Both the position numbers and the translations under genes were made by a program. Below, one piece after another: positions 54,440-63,993 of a stretch of DNA of 64,000 nucleotides (position 1 is its first letter; every line of letters begins with the position of its first letter). The DNA is from Rubrivivax sp. (GTDB lineage: Bacteria > Pseudomonadota > Gammaproteobacteria > Burkholderiales > Burkholderiaceae_C). The stretch is taken from assembly GCA_030653505.1 (NCBI GenBank), contig JAURZK010000038.1, positions 62,001 to 126,000 on the forward strand, written 5' to 3'. Below the pieces are notes generated by a model, which worked only from the letters and a program-made list of their open reading frames with translations, ran no database searches and had not been told where the DNA came from.

Positions 54440-54493
54440 AGTGAACGCTTTCCTCGCAGGGCCTTGTCGAGGCCGGTCCGAACTGCTGCACTC

Positions 54494-54894
54494 CGACGCA
54501 GACACCGTGATCTACGAGGTGGGCGACGGCATTGCCACCGTCAAGATCAACCGCCCCGAAATCCGCAATGCGCTGTCGCCCGCGGCAGCCAACCGCCTGC
54601 ACGACTGCTGGGGCGAGGTCGACGCCGACAAGAGCGTGCGTGTGGCCATCCTCACCTCGGCCGACTGCGGCACCTTCTGCGCCGGGCTGGACCTGCGCGA
54701 AGCGGCGTGCGTCAAGAAGGAAGAGGGTGTCGACATCCTGAGCAAGATGAAGGACCCTTTCCACGGCCGCCAGCGCCGCGTCGCCAAGCCCATCATCGCG
54801 GCGATGACCGGGCACCTGATCGCCGGCGGCATGATGCTGAGAAGGTCCGCGCGCCTTTGCCGAGAAGCGCAAACCGGTGTGGACGGGGCGCTGA
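54494..54894 (+). pseudogene. Truncated, frameshifted copy of the crotonase at 23536
   Basis: Near-identical to 23547-24330 over the first 345 or so bases (same GACGCAGACACCG start of homology, same FCAGLDLRE segment). Then 383 bp are missing: sequence jumps from the counterpart of 23894 directly to that of 24278. The deletion is not a multiple of three, so the remaining tail is read out of frame. The original start codon context is absent; upstream sequence is unrelated. It cannot encode a working crotonase, as it lacks the second half of the active site. Confidence 0.85.
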
Positions 54895-54925
54895 GGCGCG
54901 GCGCCCTGAAGTGCCGAGCTCATCG

Positions 54926-55494
54926 ATGAGCCAGGCTGAACTGCCGCCCGGCGTGCAGGTACTCGAGCGCGGCTGGTTGTCCAGCAACAGCGTTGCGCGC
55001 ACGCCGAACAGACACTGGCACTGGTGGCGGCGGCCCTGCGCGGGTACCCGCTCGACTGCCTCGTCAACACCCATCTGCACAGTGAACACTGCGGCGGCAA
55101 CGCCCCGCTGCAAGGCCGCTGGCCCTCGATGCGCACCCTATCCCCGCCGGGCTTAGCGGATGCGGTGGGGGCCTGGGATCCGGCGACCCTGGGCTACCAC
55201 CCCACGGGCCGCGCTGTCCGCGCTTTCGCCACGATGCGGTGGTCTTGCCGGGCACCGAGACCGAGCTCGGCGGTCTCCCCTGGCAGGTCCACGCCGCGCC
55301 GGGCCACGACCCCGATTCGGTGATTCTTTTCGAGCCAGGATCGCGCGTACTGATCTCGGCCGACGCGCTGTTGGGAGAGCGGCTTCGGCGTGGTGTTCCC
55401 CGAACTCGAAGGTGACGCCGCCCTTGCCGCGGTCGGCAGCACTTTCGACCTGATCGAGAAGCTCGGCCCGCGCTGGGTCAACCCCAATCTGCCG
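54926..55494 (+). pseudogene. Degenerate copy of the metallo-hydrolase at 24362
   Basis: Begins like the intact gene (MSQAELPPGVQ, ERGWLSSNS) but has lost about 46 bp after codon 22, carries further frameshifts, and reads THLHSEHCGGN in one frame, where Glu replaces the metal-binding Asp. Homology fades near 55494, where IS4-type transposase remnants begin. It is more diverged than the adjoining crotonase copy. Confidence 0.82.
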
Positions 55495-55735
55495 GTCGAG
55501 CAGACGCTGGACGACGGCAGCTACCTCAGCACCTTGCGGCCCGCGCGAGTGAGCGTGGCCCAGACGCTGGCCCGTGCGATCACGGTGCGGGTGATCGACT
55601 ACACACCCAGGTCTCTGAGCGCGCGATGCTGGTGGAGGCGCTGGACAAGCTCTCCCCTGGCGACGTTCTGGTGCTCGACCGAGGCTACCCGGCGGCCTGG
55701 CTGGTGGCGTTGGGTCGCGTCCCAGCGCGTGGTGT
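55495..55735 (+). pseudogene. IS4-type transposase fragments
   Basis: Short frames recall IS4-family transposases: NLPVEQTLDDGSYLSTL followed by TVRVIDYT in one frame, and after a shift LSPGDVLVLDRGYPAAWLVAL, a typical IS4 DRGY motif. The order is scrambled relative to a single transposase, so two remnants may be joined. No intact gene or ends are visible. The fragments abut the IS256-type element. Confidence 0.55.
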
Positions 55736-57025
55736 AAGTCCACAGCCCAGAAGAGCTGAGGTGCACGCTACTCAGCGAGCCACTGCGGACAGCCGAGTGG
55801 GAACAGTATCGCTGAGGGATTGCAGGCCCTCAAGTTGCATGTAGCGCCGGTTCAGACTCCACTCGTCGTTCTGCTCGAGCATCATGGCGCCGACCAGCCT
55901 GGTGATCGAAGCGTCGTTCGGGAAGATACCCACGACGCGGGTGCGCCGCTTGATCTCCGCGTTCAGCCGCTCCAGCGGGTTGGTGCTGTAGATCTGCGTC
56001 CAGTGCGCTCGCGGGAAGGTCATGAACGCCAGCACATCGTTCTCGGCCTCGTCCATCAACGCACCGAGTTTGGGGAACTTGCCGCGCAACTGATCGGCCA
56101 CCGATCGCCACTGCGCCCGCGCCGTATCGGCCGACTCCTGCACGAACACCGTGCCGATGGCCGCGCTGACCATGCGCCGCTGGGTCTTGCCGGCGTGCGC
56201 CAGGGCGTTGCGCATGAAGTGCACCCGGCACCGCTGCCAGGTGGCCTTGAGGACCTTGCTGGCGGCCGCCTTGATGCCCTCGTGGCTGTCGCTGATGACG
56301 AGCTTGACGCCGCGCAGCCCGCGCCGGTTCAGGCTGCGCAGGAACTCTGTCCAGAAGGGTTCAGCCTCCGAGGCGCCGACCTTCAGGCCCAGCACCTCGA
56401 GCTGGCCCTCGGTGTTGACGCCTACAGCCACTATCACCGCCACGCTCACGATGCGCCCGGCCTCGCGTGTCTTCACGTACGTGGCGTCGATCCACAGGTA
56501 AGGCCAGTCGCCCTCGATCTGGCGGTTCAGGAAGGCGCCCACGCGCTCGTCGAGTTCGCCGCACAGTCGGCTGACCTGGCTCTTGGACACGCCGCTCATG
56601 CCCAGGGCCTTGACCAACTCGTCCACCGAGCGGGTCGACACGCCCTGGATGTAGGCTTCCTGGATGACCGCGGTGAGTGCCTTCTCGGCCGTGCGCCGTG
56701 GCTCCAGGAATTCGGGGAAGTAGCTGCCCTGGCGCAGCTTGGGGATCTTCAGCTCGACACTGCCGGCGCGCGTATCCCAGGTGCGGTCGCGGTACCCGTT
56801 GCGGCTGTTCAGCCGATCAGGGGTCTTCTCGTCGTAGCCGGCGCCACAGCGCCCGTCGACATCGAGCTCCATCAAGCGTTGGGCCATGAACTGCACCATC
56901 TGGCGCAGCACGTCGATGTCGGCTCCCTTCTCGGCGAGTTCGGCCAGTGCCATAGTCGGAGTACGTCAAGAACCAAGAGAAAGAGGACCAAAGGTTGGAC
57001 CAACTCGGTCTGTGGAGATAAGCCG
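55731..57025. mobile_element. IS256/Mutator-type insertion sequence
   Basis: Roughly 1.3 kb around one transposase gene. Candidate terminal inverted repeats share TCCACAG(C/A)CC: 55739-55748 at the left and, reverse-complemented, 57007-57016 at the right. I see no clear target duplication, so the ends are approximate. The element sits at the junction between the decayed crotonase copy and the mutase module. Confidence 0.7.
55772..56953 (-). CDS. IS256 family transposase
   Basis: Transposase of 393 residues that appears intact. The DDE residues are placed as in the Mutator/IS256 superfamily: Asp in LWIDATYVK, Asp in VISDSHEG and Glu in [24 protein letters not shown] and GFxxNDAS-like [13 protein letters not shown] are typical. 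N-terminal residues 1-60 include [20 protein letters not shown]. The length is normal. An intact transposase suggests a fairly recent insertion compared with the decayed sequence to its left. Confidence 0.93.
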
Positions 57026-57124
57026 CCACCGGAAGGTGGCCCATGAAATGAGGGGCCGCGTTAGCGTCCCCTTCCAGCCGCTTCGAGCGGCTCACATCAC
57101 GAAAGCCCCCGGCTTTGCCGGGGG
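57025..57124 (+). other. Four consecutive hairpins resembling an IS200/IS605 right end (orphan omega-RNA-like)
   Basis: In 100 bp four stems follow one another: GCCACC-GGAA-GGTGGC (57025-57040), GGGG-C-CGC-GTTA-GCG-T-CCCC (57052-57071), AGCCGC-TTCGA-GCGGCT (57076-57092) and CCCCCGGC-TTT-GCCGGGGG (57106-57124). The sequence ACGAAAGCCCCCGGC...GGGGG followed by a few bases is reminiscent of right ends of IS200/IS605 elements, where TnpB-associated RNAs are encoded. No tnpB or tnpA gene is present next to it. It may simply terminate transcripts entering from either side. Confidence 0.42.
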
Positions 57125-57183
57125 ATGGTTACCGCTTGACAGAAATACAAGTCCATGTCCCGCATTTACCTATGAACTTCAGT

Positions 57184-57930
57184 TTAGCCCTTCGACCACT
57201 GCCGGGCGATGAAGCTGCAGGTGGCCAGCAGCAGCTGCGCATGCTCCATCACATTGGCTTCCAGGCGGTGCCGCGGCCCCGCGATCGCGACGGCGAGGGT
57301 TTCGGAATGGACCGAGAGGAAAGCCGACACCGCCCACACGTCCGGCACGTTCTCGCCGCGCGTGAGAAAGTAGCCCCGCCGCCGACTCTCCAGGATGTCG
57401 GCGATGAGGACTTCCTTGTCTGTCAGCGTGGCGCCGGTCACGACCGTGAGCGACTGGCCCGCGACCAGCGCGCGCAGCTCGGCCTCCTTCAGGCTGCCAA
57501 TCAAGGCCTTGCCGATCGCGCTGGAATGCAGCGGCTTGAACTCGCCCGGTCGGGCCGAATAGCGGATGGGGTGGGCACTCTCCACCACCTGCAGGTAGAT
57601 CACGGCATTGCCTTGCCGCTTGCCGAGGATCACGGTCTCCCGCGAGGCGTCGCACAACCGCTCGAGCATCGGCATCAGACGTTCGACGAAGGGGTCCTTC
57701 TCATGGATCGATCGGGCCAGGTCGAAGAAGCGCCGCGTGGGGTACAGGGCTCGCGGGCGTGTCAGTGAATACAGGTAGCCGCGGGCCGTGAGCGTCCCGA
57801 CGATCGCATGGCAGCTGCTCTTCGGGGTGTCCGTCAGCTCCGCCAGGTCGGTGAGCGACAGCGGCTTCCGGGCTTTTTCGAAGGCTTCGAAGATGTCGAG
57901 CACGCGCTCGACGGCAGTGACGGCGACCAT
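57184..57930 (-). CDS. IclR family transcriptional regulator
   Basis: Regulator of 248 residues, divergent from the crotonase-mutase operon and so its likely controller. Winged helix at about residues 3-70 (AVERVLDIFEAFEKARKPLS, TPKSSCHAIVGTLTARGYLY), then the effector domain (RPGEFKPLHSSAIGKALIGS) and DVWAVSAFLSVHSETLAVAIAGP. The start MVAVTAVERV at 57930 is chosen because the open frame to 58074 crosses operator-like repeats in the divergent region. It differs clearly from the IclR protein at 50148. Confidence 0.91.
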   Translation of the reverse strand: MVAVTAVERVLDIFEAFEKARKPLSLTDLAELTDTPKSSCHAIVGTLTARGYLYSLTRPRALYPTRRFFDLARSIHEKDPFVERLMPMLERLCDASRETVILGKRQGNAVIYLQVVESAHPIRYSARPGEFKPLHSSAIGKALIGSLKEAELRALVAGQSLTVVTGATLTDKEVLIADILESRRRGYFLTRGENVPDVWAVSAFLSVHSETLAVAIAGPRHRLEANVMEHAQLLLATCSFIARQWSKG

Positions 57931-57956
57931 GCTCAAAGGCAGCGGAAATTCAGCGC

Positions 57957-58025
57957 GTTGAACAAAACTCCTCCGAGACGCATGTTGTCGAGCAATCAGG
58001 TGACGTTTGTTCAACATCACGAACA
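57957..58025. promoter_or_regulatory. Operator-like inverted repeats in the divergent iclR/crotonase region
   Basis: GTTGAACAAA (57957-57966) and its exact reverse complement TTTGTTCAAC (58006-58015) are 39 bp apart. The second arm also forms TGTTC-N8-GAACA (58008-58025). Both arms contain a TTGAAC/GTTCAA core, consistent with binding of the adjacent IclR-type protein. No confident -35/-10 pair was found in the 129-bp gap. Confidence 0.5.
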
Positions 58026-58059
58026 AGCGTCCTTTGCAGCGAACTTCTTTGAATCTAGC

Positions 58060-58860
58060 ATGCACCCGATGCAATCACCTAACGCCGAACCCGCCACGCC
58101 CAACGTGCGCGTGCACGAGCCGCAACCGGGTGCGGTCTGGCTCACCATCGACCGCGCGCAGAAACACAACGCCCTCGCCCGCCCCGTGCTCGCCGAACTC
58201 GCCGACGCTGTACGCGCGGCCGGCGAGCGGGACGACGTGCGCTACATCGTCCTCACGGGCGCCGGAGAGAAATACTTCGCGGCCGGCGGCGACCTCCGCG
58301 ACCTCGCCAGCGTCCGCGACGAAGCCGCCGTGATGTCCATGATGGAAGAGGCGGGCGCTGCGCTCGATGCCATCCGCCAATGCCCCGTGCCCGTGGTCGC
58401 CTTCCTGAACGGCGACGCAATCGGTGGCGGCGCCGAGCTGGCCCTGGCGTGCGACATGCGACTGCAGGCTTCGCACGCACGCATCGGCTACATCCAGGCC
58501 AAGCTGGCGATCACTTCCGCCTGGGGCGGCGGGCCGGACCTGTTCCAGCTGATCGGCCCCGCGCATGCGATGCGCATGATGAGCCGGTGCGAGTTGGTGG
58601 CAGCCGGGCAGGCGCTTGCCTGGGGCTTGGCCGACGCCATTATTTCCGACGGGCCGCAAGGCGCCGACTTCGCCGCATTCACCAAGCCGCTAGAAGCCTG
58701 CGCCCCGCAGGTGATGCGCGGCATCAAGGCCCAGGCGATCGCCGCGCGGCAAAGCCTTGGCTGGAAGGCGCACCGCGCCGTCGAACAGCAACACCTGGTC
58801 CGCACGTGGTTGCATGACGACCACTGGGCGGCTTCCGAAAAGCTCCTGCCCAAAGGCTGA
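58060..58860 (+). CDS. Crotonase family protein, possible (substituted) malonyl-CoA decarboxylase
   Basis: Crotonase of 266 residues (or 263 if the ATG at 58069 is used). Oxyanion motif FAAGGDLRDL and a single acid in GGGAELALACD are present. The second hydratase Glu is absent: the segment reads IGYIQAKLAITSAWGGG. Loss of that Glu and the SAWGGG motif occur in decarboxylating crotonases such as ethylmalonyl- or methylmalonyl-CoA decarboxylases, which would fit a partner of the acyl-CoA mutase encoded 2 bp downstream. This function is inferred; isomerase or hydrolase activity is possible. Confidence 0.84.
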   Translation: MHPMQSPNAEPATPNVRVHEPQPGAVWLTIDRAQKHNALARPVLAELADAVRAAGERDDVRYIVLTGAGEKYFAAGGDLRDLASVRDEAAVMSMMEEAGAALDAIRQCPVPVVAFLNGDAIGGGAELALACDMRLQASHARIGYIQAKLAITSAWGGGPDLFQLIGPAHAMRMMSRCELVAAGQALAWGLADAIISDGPQGADFAAFTKPLEACAPQVMRGIKAQAIAARQSLGWKAHRAVEQQHLVRTWLHDDHWAASEKLLPKG

Positions 58861-58862
58861 CG

Positions 58863-60488
58863 ATGAACGCGAGAGACTCTGCCTCCCGGACCCCCCTGGC
58901 CGACCCCGAGCTGGGCCCCATCAGCCGCAGCGGCATTCCCGTGCCCAAAGCCGTCGAAGCGAGCGCGGTCGATCCGGCGCGCATCGGCGAGCCCGGCGAA
59001 TACCCGTTCACGCGCGGCATCTTCTCGGACGGCTATCAGGGGCGCCTTTGGACCATCCGCCAGTACTCGGGCTTCGGGACCGCCGAGGAATCCAATGAGC
59101 GCTACAAGTTCCTGCTGGACCAGGGCCAGACTGGCCTGTCGGTCGCGCTGGACCTGCCAACGCAATGCGGCTTCGATCCCACACACGCGATGGCCAGACC
59201 GGAGATTGGCAAGGTCGGCGTTTCGTTGTCGAACCTGAGCGAAGCTGAGATCCTGTTCAAGGACCTCGACCTGTCGAAGATATCCACGTCGTTCACCATC
59301 AACGGCACTGCGGCCATCATCTATGCGATGTACTTGGCGGTCGCGGACAAGCAGGGCGTGCCGCGCAGCAAGCTGACCGGCACCATCCAGAACGACATCC
59401 TGAAGGAATACGTGGCGCGCGGCACCTGGATCTTTCCCGTGCGACCGTCGATGCGCCTCATCGCGGACTCGATCCTGTACTCGAACGAAGTCACGCCGCG
59501 CTTCAACCCCATCTCGATCGCGGGTGCGCACGTTCGCGACGCCGGCGCGACTGCAGCCGAGGAGATGGCGTATACGCTGGCCAACGGCCTCGCTTACGTG
59601 GACGAGTTGCAGCGCCGCGGCGGCGACGTGGAGAAGTTCGCCAAACGCCTGTCGTTCTTCTTCTACGTGCACATGGACTTCTTCGATGAAATCGCGAAGT
59701 TCCGCGCCGGCCGGCGCCTGTGGGCCAAGCTGATGAAGGACCGCTACGGCGTGAAGGACCCGAAGGCGCAGCACTTCCGCTTCGGCGTGGTGTGTGGCGG
59801 CTCGTCGCTGGTTGCACCGCAGCCTTACAACAACGCGGTGCGCGTGGCGGTGGAGACAATGGCGGCCGTCTTCGGCGGCGCCCAGTCCATCTTCACCTGC
59901 GCCTTCGACGAAGCCTTCCAGATTCCGACAGAGTTCTCCGCGGAACTGGCGGTGCGCACGCAGCAGATGATCGCGTATGAAAGCGGCATCGCGCGCACGG
60001 TCGATCCGCTGGGTGGAAGCTATTTCCTGGAGCAGCACACCGATCGCATGGAGGAAATGATCACGAAGATCATGGGCGAGATCGACGCCTATGGCGGCGT
60101 GATCCCGGCCATCGAGGACGGCTGGATGCAGCTGCGCCTGGCCGAGCGCGGCCTGGAGCGCAAGCTGGACACCGACTCTGGCAAGAACGTGATCGTGGGC
60201 CAGAACCACTTCAAGAAGGAGAACGAGAAGATCGGCGTAGGCGATGTGTTCAAGCTTGACCCGACGGTCGCCAAGCGCGCACTCGAGAAGTTTCAATGCA
60301 CGCTGGACACACGCAACAATTCGCAGGTTGACGCGTCGCTGGCTAAGGTTTCCGCCGCTGCGGCCAACGACAGCGAAAACGTCATGCCCTACCTGGTGGA
60401 CTGCTGCCACGCGTATGCGACCGTCGGCGAGATGGTGGCGTGCCTGAAGAGGGAATGGGGCGAATTCAAGGAACCGGTGAATCTATGA
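58863..60488 (+). CDS. B12-dependent acyl-CoA mutase, large (catalytic) subunit
   Basis: A 541-residue TIM-barrel subunit of the methylmalonyl-CoA mutase superfamily without its own B12 domain. PFTRGIFSDGY, TIRQYSGFGTAEESN and GTIQNDILKEYVARGTW identify it. By alignment from memory, Tyr68 and Arg186 correspond to MCM Tyr89 and Arg207, favouring a substrate with a free carboxylate rather than the isobutyryl (Phe/Gln) or 2-hydroxyisobutyryl (Ile) type. Catalytic His223 (MCM His244) is kept, but the preceding Tyr243 is Ala222 (SIAGAHVRDAG), and QTGYDSD is CGFDPTH. This suggests an unusual, perhaps larger, substrate. Confidence 0.88.
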   Translation: MNARDSASRTPLADPELGPISRSGIPVPKAVEASAVDPARIGEPGEYPFTRGIFSDGYQGRLWTIRQYSGFGTAEESNERYKFLLDQGQTGLSVALDLPTQCGFDPTHAMARPEIGKVGVSLSNLSEAEILFKDLDLSKISTSFTINGTAAIIYAMYLAVADKQGVPRSKLTGTIQNDILKEYVARGTWIFPVRPSMRLIADSILYSNEVTPRFNPISIAGAHVRDAGATAAEEMAYTLANGLAYVDELQRRGGDVEKFAKRLSFFFYVHMDFFDEIAKFRAGRRLWAKLMKDRYGVKDPKAQHFRFGVVCGGSSLVAPQPYNNAVRVAVETMAAVFGGAQSIFTCAFDEAFQIPTEFSAELAVRTQQMIAYESGIARTVDPLGGSYFLEQHTDRMEEMITKIMGEIDAYGGVIPAIEDGWMQLRLAERGLERKLDTDSGKNVIVGQNHFKKENEKIGVGDVFKLDPTVAKRALEKFQCTLDTRNNSQVDASLAKVSAAAANDSENVMPYLVDCCHAYATVGEMVACLKREWGEFKEPVNL

Positions 60489-60502
60489 ACGTCGCCGCAC
60501 CG

Positions 60503-60531
60503 CCCCAAGACGCGAATGCCCACTCTTGGGG
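60503..60531 (+). other. Hairpin between mutase subunit genes
   Basis: CCCCAAGA and TCTTGGGG form an 8-bp stem with a 13-base loop in the 79-bp gap between the mutase subunits. No U-tract follows. It could set the ratio of the two subunits. The gap is too short for a cobalamin riboswitch. Confidence 0.4.
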
Positions 60532-60567
60532 GAAACGCATTGCACGAAGTGAAAAGCGTAGGGAAAC

Positions 60568-60987
60568 ATGACTGACGTGAACGAAGAAGCACGCCCGCTC
60601 GCGGGCAAGCGCATCCTGGTCGGCAAGCCCGGCCTGGACGGCCACGACATCGGCGCGAAGATCATCGCCCTCACGCTGCGTGACGCGGGCGCTGAGGTGA
60701 TCTACACCGGACTGCGCCGCAGCCCGGGCCAGATCGCCCAGGTGGCGGTCGACGAAGGCGTCGACGCGGTGGGCCTATCCATCCTCTCCGGCAGCCACAA
60801 GGAGCTCGTGGCGGACGTGATGGTGGAGTTGCGCAAGCTCGACGTCAGCGGGATCAAGGTGTTCGTCGGCGGGACCATTCCAGGCGAGGACCACGCGATG
60901 CTTCAGGAACTCGGTGTGGCCGCCATTTTCACCGCCGACATGCCGCTGGACGCGGTGGTCTCGCAACTGGCGGCGCAGCTGCGATGA
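60568..60987 (+). CDS. B12-binding small subunit of the acyl-CoA mutase
   Basis: A 139-residue cobalamin-binding domain protein that supplies the cofactor to the large subunit. The base-off/His-on motif is complete: Lys20, Asp24, His26 and Gly29 in KPGLDGHDIGAK. LSGSHKELV and GGTIPGEDHAMLQELGV form the rest of the Rossmann-like pocket. Split large/small subunits are known for 2-hydroxyisobutyryl-CoA and many other bacterial and archaeal mutases. The stop overlaps the start of the CaiB gene (ATGA). Confidence 0.92.
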   Translation: MTDVNEEARPLAGKRILVGKPGLDGHDIGAKIIALTLRDAGAEVIYTGLRRSPGQIAQVAVDEGVDAVGLSILSGSHKELVADVMVELRKLDVSGIKVFVGGTIPGEDHAMLQELGVAAIFTADMPLDAVVSQLAAQLR

Positions 60988-62111
60988 GCGCGCCCCTGGC
61001 CGGCATCCGCGTGATCGAGGTCGGCCACATGCTGGCCGGGCCCTATTGCGGCCTGCTCCTGGCCGACATGGGTGCCGAAGTCATCAAGATCGAGCCGCCC
61101 GAAGGCGACATCGGGCGCAAGGTCAGCCCGCACTTCATCGGGCCGCACAACGCGTACTTCGCCAGCCTGAACCGCAACAAGAAGAGCGTGGTGCTGGACC
61201 TCGCGAGCCCGGAAGGCCGCGCGGAACTCGAATCCATCGCGGCGAGGTCGCACGCGCTCATCACTAACCTGCGCCCCGCCGCCATCAAGAAGCTGCGACT
61301 CACCTACGAAGACATGAAGCGTTGCAACCCGAAGATGGTGTGCGTGGCGCTCACGGGCTACGGTCTCGAAGGCCCATACTCCGACAGCCCGGCCTACGAC
61401 TACGTCATCCAGGCGTTGACCGGCGTGATGTCGCTCACCGGAGACCCTTCGGCGCCGCCGACCAAGACCGGTTACTCCGCCGTCGACAACTCCGCCGGCA
61501 TCATGGCCGCGCTGGGCCTCTTGGCGAAGGTCGTGGAGGGCCTGGGCGGCCAGGTGGACGTTGCCATGTACGACGTGATGATGTCACAGCTGAACTATCT
61601 GGCCGGCGCGTCGCTGAACGCGGGCGAGGTGATGGAGCGGCTCGCCAATTCCTCGCACCCCTACATGGTGCCGGCGCAGATCTTCCCTACTAGCGACGGC
61701 TGGCTCACCCTCTTCATCTCGCACGACAAGTTCTGGCAGAAGTTCTGCGCGAAGATCGGCAAGCCGGAGTGGGCTATCGACCCGGCATTCGCCACCATGG
61801 CGAGCCGGCGCGACAATCGGGCGCAGGTGCTCGCCGCGATCGGCGAAGTCCTTCGACAGGCGAGCGCCGCCGACTGGGTGCGCCGGCTGGGGCCCCTGGG
61901 CATCGTCGTCGCCGAAGTCGGGACGATGGGACAGGCGCTGGAAAGCGGCCAAGCCCGCGCGCGCGGCCTGATTGTGCCGCTGGGCGATGGCAAGCAGAAC
62001 CTGCGCGCCGTCGGCAGCCCGCTCAAGTTCGACGGGTTCGCGCCGGTCTACGGCATGCCGCCGCTGCTGGACGAGCACCATCAAGAGGTGTTAGGCAAGG
62101 CCGTCGCATGA
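60984..62111 (+). CDS. CaiB/BaiF family CoA-transferase of the mutase operon
   Basis: Single-domain CoA-transferase of 375 residues: GIRVIEVGHMLAGPYCGLLLADMG, EVIKIEPPEGD and catalytic Asp in GYSAVDNSAGIMAALG. Coupled by ATGA to both the small mutase subunit and the MeaB-type GTPase, so its role is tied to the mutase. The most economical idea is that it charges an imported di- or hydroxy-carboxylate with CoA to make the mutase substrate. The donor is unknown. Confidence 0.91.
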   Translation: MSAPLAGIRVIEVGHMLAGPYCGLLLADMGAEVIKIEPPEGDIGRKVSPHFIGPHNAYFASLNRNKKSVVLDLASPEGRAELESIAARSHALITNLRPAAIKKLRLTYEDMKRCNPKMVCVALTGYGLEGPYSDSPAYDYVIQALTGVMSLTGDPSAPPTKTGYSAVDNSAGIMAALGLLAKVVEGLGGQVDVAMYDVMMSQLNYLAGASLNAGEVMERLANSSHPYMVPAQIFPTSDGWLTLFISHDKFWQKFCAKIGKPEWAIDPAFATMASRRDNRAQVLAAIGEVLRQASAADWVRRLGPLGIVVAEVGTMGQALESGQARARGLIVPLGDGKQNLRAVGSPLKFDGFAPVYGMPPLLDEHHQEVLGKAVA

Positions 62112-63004
62112 CGAAACCTCCGCTGGACAGGCATGCGCTCGGCCGCCGGCTGTCGAAGCTGGCGAATGCGAGCGCCTCGGACCTGCTGCGCCTGCAGCCG
62201 GTCGCGACCGGCGCCCCGCCCGCGCGGCGCATCGGCCTCACCGGCGCTCCCGGCGCGGGCAAGAGCACGCTGGCCGGCCACCTGGCCCTGCACCGAGGCC
62301 GCGACCGTCGCCTGGGCGTGCTCGCGGTCGACCCAAGCAGCCCTCGCACCGGCGGCGCCATTCTGGGCGACCGCATCCGCATGGACGATCTCGTGGGCAG
62401 TTCGGAGGTGTACATCCGCTCGATCGGCTCTCGCTCCGCATGCGACGGCCTCTCGGACAATCTACCCGAGATGCTGGACACGATGGACCAGTTCGGCTTC
62501 GAAGAAGTGCTGCTGGAAACCGTCGGCGTGGGCCAGGCCGAGTACGCCGCGCGCGCGCAGGTCGACACGCTCGTTCTGGTGCTGCTGCCTGAGAGCGGTG
62601 ACATCGTGCAGGCCATGAAGGCCGGCATCATGGAGATGGCGGACCTCTTCGTCGTGAACAAGGCTGATCTGCCGGGCGCACAGAAGATGGCGACAGACAT
62701 CAAGCGAATCAGCGCGCTGGCACGCCACGCCGAAGGCGCCTGGTGCCCGCTGGTGCTCCTGGCTTCCTCTGCCCAGCCGGAAACGATCGCGGCGCTTTCG
62801 AACGGCATCGACGAACACCAGGCGTGGCTGGCGACAAGCCGCGGAGGCGACAACCTGTTGCTGGCCCGTGCCCGCTACCGCCTGCGCCGCCTGATCGAGC
62901 GGCGCGCCGCCGAGGCGGTGGCGGCACTGGACACCCAGGCGCTACAGGCGCCCCTGCAGCAACAACTGGACCAGGCGCTTCAAAGAATCCGCAATCCTGG
63001 ATAG
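62108..63004 (+). CDS. MeaB/ArgK family GTPase chaperone for the mutase
   Basis: G3E-family GTPase of 298 residues that loads and protects adenosylcobalamin in acyl-CoA mutases. Motifs: Walker A GLTGAPGAGKST, the switch-like VDPSSPRTGGAILGDRIRM, ETVGVGQAE and NKAD. It is somewhat shorter than the usual 320-340 residues, mainly at the N-terminus. Presence of its own chaperone beside the split mutase argues that the module is functional on its own after transfer. Start ATG 62108 overlaps the CaiB stop. Confidence 0.92.
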   Translation: MTKPPLDRHALGRRLSKLANASASDLLRLQPVATGAPPARRIGLTGAPGAGKSTLAGHLALHRGRDRRLGVLAVDPSSPRTGGAILGDRIRMDDLVGSSEVYIRSIGSRSACDGLSDNLPEMLDTMDQFGFEEVLLETVGVGQAEYAARAQVDTLVLVLLPESGDIVQAMKAGIMEMADLFVVNKADLPGAQKMATDIKRISALARHAEGAWCPLVLLASSAQPETIAALSNGIDEHQAWLATSRGGDNLLLARARYRLRRLIERRAAEAVAALDTQALQAPLQQQLDQALQRIRNPG

Positions 63005-63027
63005 ATCGGCACCCCAAGGAGACATCG

Positions 63028-63993
63028 ATGGTCAAGAAGATCCGCCCCTGGACCACCCTCGCCGGCTGCGCCCTCATCGCCTTCGCGGCGCAGGCCCAGG
63101 TCTTCCCCGATCGGCTCGTGAAGATCCTGGTGCCGCAGACTCCGGGCGGTGCCTCCGACGCATTGGCCCGCATCGTGGCGCAGGAGCTGAACAGGAAGTG
63201 GGGCCAGTCCGTCGTGGTGGAAAACCGCGCGGGTGCCGGCGGCAACGTCGGCATGGAGGTGGTCGCCAATTCGCCGGCCGATGGCTACACGCTGCTCATG
63301 AGCTACGTGGGGACGCACGCGATTAACGGCGCGCTGTATAAGAAGTTGGCCTTCGACCCGGAGAAGGACTTTGTGCCCGTCGCGACGCTGGCGACGCTGC
63401 CCTTCGTCGTCGTCGCCAAATCCGACGCGCCTTTCAGGACGATCCCCGATCTCGTCTCCGCCGCGAAGAAGGGATCGCTGACGTATGGCTCGGCGGGCAA
63501 CGGATCGGTCAATCACTTGCTGGGTGAGATGTTCAACTCCGCAGCCGGCGTGAAGCTCACGCATGTGCCTTATCGCGGCGCGGCACCGGCGATGCAGGAC
63601 CTGATGGGTGGGCATATCCATCTGGTGTTCACGAGTCTGCCCTCAGTGTCGGGGTCGATCCGGCAGGGTACGCTGCACCCGATTGCCGTCACGAGCGCCA
63701 AGCGCGCGGCTTCGTTCGCGAACATCCCGACCGTGGCTGAAGCGGGCTTCAAGGACTTCGACGTGAACCCGTGGTTCGGCCTGTTCGCGCCGGCCAAGGT
63801 TCCGGCGGCCGTGATTGCAAAGATCAATGCCGACGTGAACGAAGTGCTGAAGGCCAAGGAAGTGGTGGACAAGTTCGCCGCGCAGGGTGCGGAGCCCTAT
63901 CTCACGACACCGCAGCAGTTCGCGGCGGTGCTCCAGGCGGACATCGCCAAGTGGGGCCAAGTAGTGAAGGCCTCGGGCGCCAGCGTTGACTGA
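63028..63993 (+). CDS. Bug/TctC-type periplasmic solute receptor
   Basis: Extracytoplasmic receptor of 321 residues. The signal peptide (TTLAGCALIAFAAQAQ) precedes VFPDRLVKILVPQTPGG. Bug features: PQTPGGASDALARI, ENRAGAGGNVGMEVV, ADGYTLLMSY, HVPYRGAAPAMQDL. The start at 63028 has AAGGAGACATCG upstream. It is the last gene seen in the mutase operon and probably binds the carboxylate destined for CoA transfer. It is distinct from the receptor at 44103. Seven bases remain after its stop. Confidence 0.92.
   Translation: MVKKIRPWTTLAGCALIAFAAQAQVFPDRLVKILVPQTPGGASDALARIVAQELNRKWGQSVVVENRAGAGGNVGMEVVANSPADGYTLLMSYVGTHAINGALYKKLAFDPEKDFVPVATLATLPFVVVAKSDAPFRTIPDLVSAAKKGSLTYGSAGNGSVNHLLGEMFNSAAGVKLTHVPYRGAAPAMQDLMGGHIHLVFTSLPSVSGSIRQGTLHPIAVTSAKRAASFANIPTVAEAGFKDFDVNPWFGLFAPAKVPAAVIAKINADVNEVLKAKEVVDKFAAQGAEPYLTTPQQFAAVLQADIAKWGQVVKASGASVD

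Follow-up and report, generated by a model that had tools for sequence, protein, structure and literature searches.

A conserved adenosylcobalamin-dependent acyl-CoA mutase module in Rubrivivax with a putative role in the breakdown of substituted succinates

Gene content and conservation of the operon

We analysed a 64,000-nucleotide stretch of Rubrivivax sp. DNA (GenBank assembly GCA_030653505.1, contig JAURZK010000038.1, positions 62,001 to 126,000 of the forward strand), hereafter the window, and followed up a run of genes at 57184-63993 (positions counted from the window's first letter) that is built around a split B12-dependent acyl-CoA mutase. All seven genes of the run are open and complete. 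The IclR-family regulator is divergent from the other six, which lie on the plus strand and are separated, in order, by 2 nt, 79 nt, two 4-nt overlaps and 23 nt, i.e., by spacing of the kind expected of one transcript. The single tightly spaced unit described in the initial annotation was thus borne out; its features are as follows.

57184..57930, minus strand: IclR-family regulator (Pfam IclR_C and HTH_IclR)
58007..58026, no strand: palindromic operator-like site TTGTTC-N8-GAACAA, between the IclR and crotonase genes
58060..58860, plus strand: crotonase-fold protein (Pfam ECH_1), a proposed substituted-malonyl-CoA decarboxylase
58863..60488, plus strand: large (substrate) subunit of an adenosylcobalamin (AdoCbl)-dependent acyl-CoA mutase, apparently a subfamily of its own (PF01642 MM_CoA_mutase, 619.7 bits; tree; pocket residues)
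60568..60987, plus strand: B12-binding small subunit of the mutase (PF02310, and TIGR00640 above its cut-off; DxHxxG motif read as DGHDIG)
60984..62111, plus strand: class III CoA-transferase of the CaiB/BaiF family (PF02515 CoA_transf_3, 369.2 bits)
62108..63004, plus strand: MeaB-type GTPase, a putative mutase chaperone (PF03308, 218.7 bits)
63028..63993, plus strand: Bug/TctC periplasmic binding protein (PF03401, 252.4 bits)

With a PF01642 large domain and a B12-binding domain carrying DxHxxG, the mutase belongs to the MM_CoA_mutase superfamily, and the CoA_transf_3 match places CaiB among the class III CoA-transferases. The IclR start was set at ATG 57930; its frame is still open upstream to 58074.

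Scanning a genome collection with the mutase large subunit yielded 182 pattern matches and 156 relatives, of which the best 80 were kept. We compared 61 loci, namely 55 of these 80, four plasmid records and two genomes of a sample of the order; two of the loci (L008 and L056) come from one Hydrogenophaga strain, and each denominator below counts the contigs that reach far enough or show the match. The nearest mutases among the best 80 of the 156 relatives, at 91-92%, were those of Ramlibacter and of a metagenome-assembled Burkholderiales genome. When these loci were checked for synteny, as the initial annotation had proposed, the core order of crotonase, split mutase, class III CoA-transferase and MeaB was found in nearly all of them: the crotonase was in the right place and on the operon strand in 58/60 loci, the small subunit in 58/59, CaiB in 56/59 and MeaB in 56/58, with the small-subunit and CaiB misses at L055 being frameshifts. 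Gene clustering here exceeds chance. An IclR gene adjoins the operon upstream in 45 of 56 loci (36 divergent, nine in the operon direction). The Bug receptor, presented at first as a fixed part of the unit, turned out to be an exchangeable one: close behind MeaB we found Bug in 22/55 loci, LivK in 10/54 and TAXI in 5/54, with two of these together in some, so that LivK-type or TAXI-TRAP parts replace or accompany it elsewhere.

The hosts are mostly Burkholderiales, along with Rhodobacterales, marine Alphaproteobacteria and plasmids; record titles among the best 80 name Ramlibacter, Hydrogenophaga, Polaromonas, Rhodoferax, Achromobacter, Bordetella, Sulfitobacter and marine Alphaproteobacteria. 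Only three of 399 genomes in the order sample, our own included, carry the mutase at 67% identity or more, and the module is therefore sporadic. On plasmids, 428 records had some mutase match, seven of them at 60% identity or more, and we looked at four of these (from Diaphorobacter, Paraburkholderia, Marinobacter and Sulfitobacter); their public label is 'methylmalonyl-CoA mutase family protein'.

Some individual loci stood out. Hydrogenophaga sp. 2FB carries two modules (the L008 and L056 loci), one with TauD/RraA genes and the other with a 2-oxoglutarate (2OG) oxygenase and an aldehyde dehydrogenase. On the Marinobacter plasmid, the module is followed by a cobalamin adenosyltransferase gene (L104:18275-18844), which fits an AdoCbl-dependent enzyme. 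L121:5173-9518, a possible distant variant of the module, holds a Cys243 mutase and a MeaB-like frame, and its CaiB shares 41% identity with that of the window.

As for regulation, the palindrome at 58007-58026 is the only exact match to TTGTTC-N8-GAACAA in the window. Across 35 divergent regions (the window plus 34 loci), we counted ten exact sites, 12 with one mismatch in the 12 fixed bases, nine with two and four with three; two mismatches or fewer thus occurred in 31/35 divergent regions, compared with about 0.65% of mononucleotide shuffles. The genome itself holds two exact palindromes, one at this operon and one on contig C138, and no copy of a control pattern. Exact palindromes were present in 12 of 16 module genomes, picked partly for a known good intergenic site, at 20 places in total, compared with four places in four genomes for the reversed control pattern. 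Twelve of the 20 places, in eight genomes, lie ~1 kb from the mutase gene, and in four genomes a pair of palindromes lies 60-61 bp apart. These findings agree with the earlier proposal that the unit has its own regulation, and IclR may bind the palindrome.

The mutase and its partner enzymes

In a tree of 68 mutase rows, the 24 core rows were split off by a branch supported at 100/100 and were joined, also at 100/100, by three actinobacterial rows. This clade is separate from methylmalonyl-CoA mutase (MCM), whose six rows, including human and P. shermanii, form a distinct group of their own (100/100), and likewise from 2-hydroxyisobutyryl-CoA mutase (HCM), from the isobutyryl-CoA mutase IcmF and from other groups. 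It is also separate from the ethylmalonyl-like rows (L095, L097 and L098, not named enzymes) and from the mutases of iaa-like clusters (three loci assigned by their neighbours; the Aromatoleum aromaticum sequence itself is not among the rows). Escherichia coli ScpA grouped with MCM, with the window mutase far outside, which sets the latter apart from Sbm-type MCM mutases. A placement firmly within characterised MCMs, named at the outset as the outcome that would overturn the idea of a non-standard mutase, was therefore not what the tree returned. The forks between the groups are less supported, four rows (L121, L124, L122 and L106) are long and the tree program flags long branches that meet, and so the deeper kinship of the groups is uncertain. 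Judged by its sequence, the window mutase appears to be a specificity class of its own.

We compared pocket residues in 59 rows, one from the window and the rest from 58 of the 61 loci, having dropped L055 (frameshifted), L057 (partial contig) and L108 (partial, ending near residue 244), and numbered them by 1REQ, i.e., P. shermanii MCM, as chain index plus one, which we take to be the usual numbering of that enzyme. Tyr89 and Arg207, presumably the carboxylate-binding pair, as well as His244, were present in 59/59 rows. The same 59 rows all carried Gly78, Leu117, Ala243, Asp247 and Val330 (M78G, F117L, Y243A, E247D and Q330V), having lost the MCM residues Met78, Phe117, Tyr243 and Gln330. The Ala222 singled out by the initial annotation is correct and equals Tyr243 of the P. 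shermanii enzyme, and its claim of a non-standard pocket has held up. As for the dropped rows, L057 keeps the five altered residues and has Cys at 207, and L108 shows Leu near the 244 position and Ala at 247.

These five changes are among 12 core-specific ones at 102 positions conserved in 43 reference rows (MCM, HCM, ethylmalonyl-like, iaa-like and the Bacillota/other group, with the GG, IcmF, LN, actinobacterial and x rows left out); some of the remaining seven are conservative or distant, e.g., D148E. The three actinobacterial rows carry all five as well. A looser comparison with 46 rows, LN rows included, gave 37 specificity positions, and five of the 36 numbered ones fall in the contact list (1.8 expected, p 0.025), which lends modest support to an altered pocket. 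Moreover, segments 326-332 and 363-368 are near constant in seven MCM and ten HCM rows and differ in the core, in 3/3 ethylmalonyl-like and in 3/3 iaa-like rows; since the latter two are presumed mutases of larger acids, this divergence would fit larger substrates. The HCM signature Ile89, Asp116 and Gln207 is replaced in the window mutase by Tyr, Ala and Arg, and Gln122 and Gly328 are common to the window type and the three ethylmalonyl-like rows.

Related mutases were noticed elsewhere. Two actinobacterial relatives with the same altered residues (L060:9971-11575 and L063:9995-11599) lie downstream of genes that resemble, by eye, a succinate dehydrogenase flavoprotein/iron-sulfur pair, and an adjacent small subunit was not detected. 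Another mutase group (L123:7471-8988, L124:542-2128 and L125:903-2465) combines Gly78 with Gly243 or Val243.

Turning to the partner enzymes, the crotonase keeps the first catalytic Glu in all 57 core relatives with a crotonase match, and its second is replaced in all 57 (by Gln in 55 and by His in L035 and L107). It thus has a crotonase fold that lacks the hydratase Glu pair, as does the E. coli methylmalonyl-CoA decarboxylase ScpB, which has Pro in the second place; the loss argues against a hydratase and would be compatible with decarboxylation. A motif likeness to mammalian ECHDC1, presumably an ethylmalonyl-CoA decarboxylase, is not counted as evidence here. The best NCBIfam match of CaiB is to succinate-glutarate CoA-transferase (246.7 bits, far under the cut-off of 750), and the nearest named models are dicarboxylate transferases, including succinyl-CoA:mesaconate transferase, both below cut-off. 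CaiB Asp197 aligns with Asp in 4hl6, 4ed9 and 5yit, whereas 10uh has Glu and 9br7 Ser at that place; Asp197 is a candidate for the catalytic Asp of class III CoA-transferases. MeaB scored 215.3 bits against TIGR00750 (cut-off 240.75).

Other mutases and neighbouring genes

A second split mutase lies outside the window, 31 kb from the operon (G000:C21:153753-155324, equal to L101:9254-10825), with its own MeaB and with thiolase, Rieske oxygenase and CaiB genes nearby. It has Leu89, Ile116, Asn207 and Gln243 and, as the carboxylate pair is missing, its substrate is probably not a succinyl-CoA. Homologues at 65% identity or more occur in ten of 50 module genomes (the hosts of 50 of the 55 loci taken from the scan) versus eight of 399 order-sample genomes, two of the eight carrying the module; as the samples differ taxonomically and 40/50 module genomes lack this second mutase, the enrichment is only a lead. 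On the Diaphorobacter plasmid (L102:897-11500), a mutase of the second type, ~10 kb upstream of the module crotonase, is accompanied by its own MeaB, an AMP-binding ligase and a Liv-type ABC transporter, all upstream of the module. The Rubrivivax genome also holds an MCM-type mutase fragment (L003) at a contig end and a second, untyped fragment (L004) at another contig end.

Neighbouring genes were counted on the fetched stretches of the 61 loci, which differ in length, so that absences are soft. An IPNS-like 2OG-Fe(II) oxygenase occurs in 14 loci, 11 of these with an aldehyde dehydrogenase, as would be expected if a methyl group were first oxidised to the second carboxylate; in all, aldehyde dehydrogenase occurs in 12 loci, a short-chain dehydrogenase/reductase (SDR) in six and a Baeyer-Villiger-like monooxygenase in four. 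A TauD-RraA-flavin mononucleotide (FMN) dehydrogenase set is represented in nine, nine and seven loci, respectively, and never together with the 2OG oxygenase (~2 loci expected, a weak deviation). These varied settings may be different ways of making or importing one kind of diacid. When ten neighbour representatives were run against NCBIfam, the 2OG oxygenase had no match, and the TauD, monooxygenase, FMN dehydrogenase, aldehyde dehydrogenase, thiamine pyrophosphate (TPP)-enzyme and hydroxyacid-dehydrogenase neighbours matched only below cut-off. RraA (4-carboxy-4-hydroxy-2-oxoadipate aldolase/oxaloacetate decarboxylase, 182.7 vs 179) and the SDR (generic glucose 1-dehydrogenase subfamily, 327.2 vs 215) passed; these names point to no mutase pathway, and the neighbours therefore gave no substrate assignment.

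In the Rubrivivax genome, a search for the 2OG oxygenase gave no match (a weak negative, with no positive control), TauD matched at only 28% identity in two places, and the surroundings of the operon held neither set, as would befit a diacid taken up directly by Bug. Just downstream of the operon lies a flavin monooxygenase gene (L100:1929-3554), perhaps of the Baeyer-Villiger kind, whose product is 52% identical to one near the L027 module. In the marine alphaproteobacterial modules L042 and L044, a 2OG oxygenase gene lies directly upstream, and MeaB is followed by an amidase, a hydroxyacid dehydrogenase and a two-part TPP enzyme resembling sulfopyruvate decarboxylase (scanned in L044). On the other flank of the window module, and outside it, is a Mutator-family (IS256-type) transposase gene (55772..56953, minus strand; PF00872, 425.7 bits), with no convincing terminal inverted repeat in 55500-57200. 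A crotonase frame near it (54441-54929) spans only positions 3-107 of the 251-position family model and is probably a truncated gene.

A proposed route, its rivals and known systems

Taken together, these results make it rather probable that the operon serves the catabolism of a 2-substituted (or 2,2-disubstituted) succinate. We infer its reactions, substrate and direction as follows. Bug, or the LivK-ABC or TAXI-TRAP part in other loci, would import the acid or a precursor, and CaiB would transfer CoA to the acid, probably from succinyl-CoA. The split mutase, serviced by MeaB, would then shift the CO-SCoA group onto the adjacent carbon, HOOC-CH2-C(R1)(R2)-CO-SCoA -> HOOC-CH(CO-SCoA)-CH(R1)(R2), giving a substituted malonyl-CoA. 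Its decarboxylation by the crotonase would draw the reversible rearrangement forward and leave an acyl-CoA usable by beta-oxidation, with the divergent IclR controlling the operon via the palindrome. Essentially this route had been suggested before, and it is the best reading of the genes, its chemistry and substrate being predicted ones. The main substrate candidates are methylsuccinate, 2,2-dimethylsuccinate and longer or aryl succinates.

Several observations weigh against this proposal. No biochemical data were found for any module member, and the lost Glu marks the crotonase as 'not a normal hydratase' and not as a 'decarboxylase'. The contact-list enrichment (5/36) is weak, the contact list itself being provisional. 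All six ethylmalonyl-like and iaa-like rows, whose labels are themselves inferred, keep Tyr243, and a small residue at 243 is therefore unnecessary for a larger acid. The 35 divergent regions are related and hence not independent. As the neighbouring oxygenases vary (2OG, TauD or neither), the loci may not all serve one compound, and the core itself has gaps: L027 lacks CaiB and a crotonase in place, L040 lacks CaiB, L043 lacks a crotonase in place, and MeaB is missing at L107 and at L019, a short contig. Lastly, two of six examined genomes (G004 and G006) hold no PF01642 match other than the window-type mutase, which would be compatible with a role on succinyl-CoA.

This last point, together with a set of functions equal to that of E. 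coli scpA (mutase), argK (MeaB-type), scpB (crotonase-fold decarboxylase) and scpC (CoA-transferase), speaks for an ordinary Sbm-like module, in which succinyl-CoA would pass through methylmalonyl-CoA to propionyl-CoA and CO2, with CoA returned to succinate. We consider this improbable, given the placement of ScpA with MCM, far from the window mutase, the alteration, in 59/59 rows, of five positions that MCM, HCM and other rows conserve, and the MCM-type fragment in the Rubrivivax genome itself; moreover, CaiB is a class III transferase and ScpC presumably belongs to another class. An ethylmalonyl-CoA-mutase-like module run in reverse, from methylsuccinate via methylsuccinyl-CoA and ethylmalonyl-CoA to butyryl-CoA, would involve the smallest substrate requiring a wider pocket, and it draws on the shared Gln122 and Gly328 and on the sub-threshold likeness of CaiB to the succinate-glutarate and mesaconate transferases. 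It is nevertheless unlikely: the clades are separate, the changes at 78, 243 and 330 are left unexplained and, since a dehydrogenase can reportedly oxidise methylsuccinyl-CoA without a detour (PMC5798300), no mutase would be needed.

An aerobic counterpart of IaaL/IaaGH, which would convert an aryl- or alkyl-succinate to an arylmethyl- or alkylmalonyl-CoA and replace IaaF by non-oxidative decarboxylation, has the step order of the indoleacetate pathway in its favour (PMC8360864). However, the three loci of the order that we take as iaa-like by neighbourhood (L118-L120) have split mutases of a separate clade with other residues, near a CaiB only 25.5-27.5% identical to that of the window, and the window module is therefore probably not IaaGH/IaaL. 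Among the neighbours scanned at two of these loci are a molybdopterin-binding protein and a 3HCDH/ECH fusion (L119) and a molybdopterin dehydrogenase FAD subunit, an acyl-CoA dehydrogenase and a TPP/POR protein (L120). With no acyl-CoA dehydrogenase in the module either, we regard such a counterpart as doubtful. Least probable is a biosynthetic direction, with the crotonase acting as a hydratase or thioesterase and the mutase running towards a succinyl-CoA product so that branched succinates are made. Such mutases are reversible, and ActD/MatB are proposed to run this way (PMC5719088); against this, the module has no carboxylase to make a malonyl-CoA, its uptake genes and IclR regulator fit catabolism, and its crotonase has lost the second Glu.

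Within the catabolic reading of substituted succinates that we favour, a more specific version, which we put forward only tentatively and think unlikely, is a new B12 mutase class for quaternary-carbon succinates, e.g., one converting 2,2-dimethylsuccinyl-CoA to isopropylmalonyl-CoA for decarboxylation to isovaleryl-CoA. This version would account for the smaller side chains at positions 78 and 243, the 2OG oxygenase near 14/61 loci (11 with aldehyde dehydrogenase) and the co-occurrence of the second unusual mutase (10/50 vs 8/399). If true, the module would be an aerobic, sometimes plasmid-borne funnel for gem-dimethyl or tert-alkyl compounds, whose beta-oxidation is blocked.

Known substrates of B12 acyl-CoA mutases are few (methylmalonyl-, ethylmalonyl-, hydroxyisobutyryl-, pivalyl- and benzylmalonyl-CoA), and each of these classes has pointed to a route of breakdown or biosynthesis. 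As a conserved gene set with a regulator of its own and concerted changes in the mutase, the module offers a defined enzyme set to assay; it suggests that the label 'methylmalonyl-CoA mutase family protein' hides another activity, and it may reveal how aerobes degrade branched diacids. In the literature, no title or abstract start describing this operon was found; as these were mostly listings, this is not proof of absence.

Compared with known systems, the E. coli sbm operon, which acts on succinyl- and methylmalonyl-CoA (PMC5512728), likewise has genes for a mutase, a MeaB-type GTPase, a crotonase-fold decarboxylase and a CoA-transferase side by side, but its mutase is fused and lies in the MCM clade, and no IclR or Bug gene adjoins it. 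The iaa pathway of Aromatoleum aromaticum (PMC8360864) uses the CoA-transferase IaaL and the B12 mutase IaaGH to turn a substituted succinyl-CoA into a substituted malonyl-CoA, the order of steps proposed here, but starts from indoleacetate and decarboxylates oxidatively through IaaF. HcmAB (4r3u, the best PDB match by sequence to the window mutase) is likewise a split mutase with a G-protein chaperone gene (PMC7176365); it differs by its Ile89, Asp116 and Gln207 and by a CoA ligase in place of CaiB. The ethylmalonyl-like rows, assigned by residue pattern and host, share Tyr89, Arg207, Gln122 and Gly328 with the window type and differ in Pro or Ala at 78, Tyr243, Gln330, longer frames (663-722 aa) and clade. 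ActD/MatB of actinonin and matlystatin, compared by description and not by sequence, have a proposed interconversion of hexylmalonyl-CoA and 2-pentylsuccinyl-CoA in common with our scheme, but are biosynthetic and come with a carboxylase (PMC5719088). Thus, of the unusual portable operon first claimed, portability is in keeping with the plasmid records, while the architecture has precedents in sbm (scpA-argK-scpB-scpC) and iaa (PMC8360864); what is new is the apparent specificity class of the mutase and a widespread module with its own regulator.

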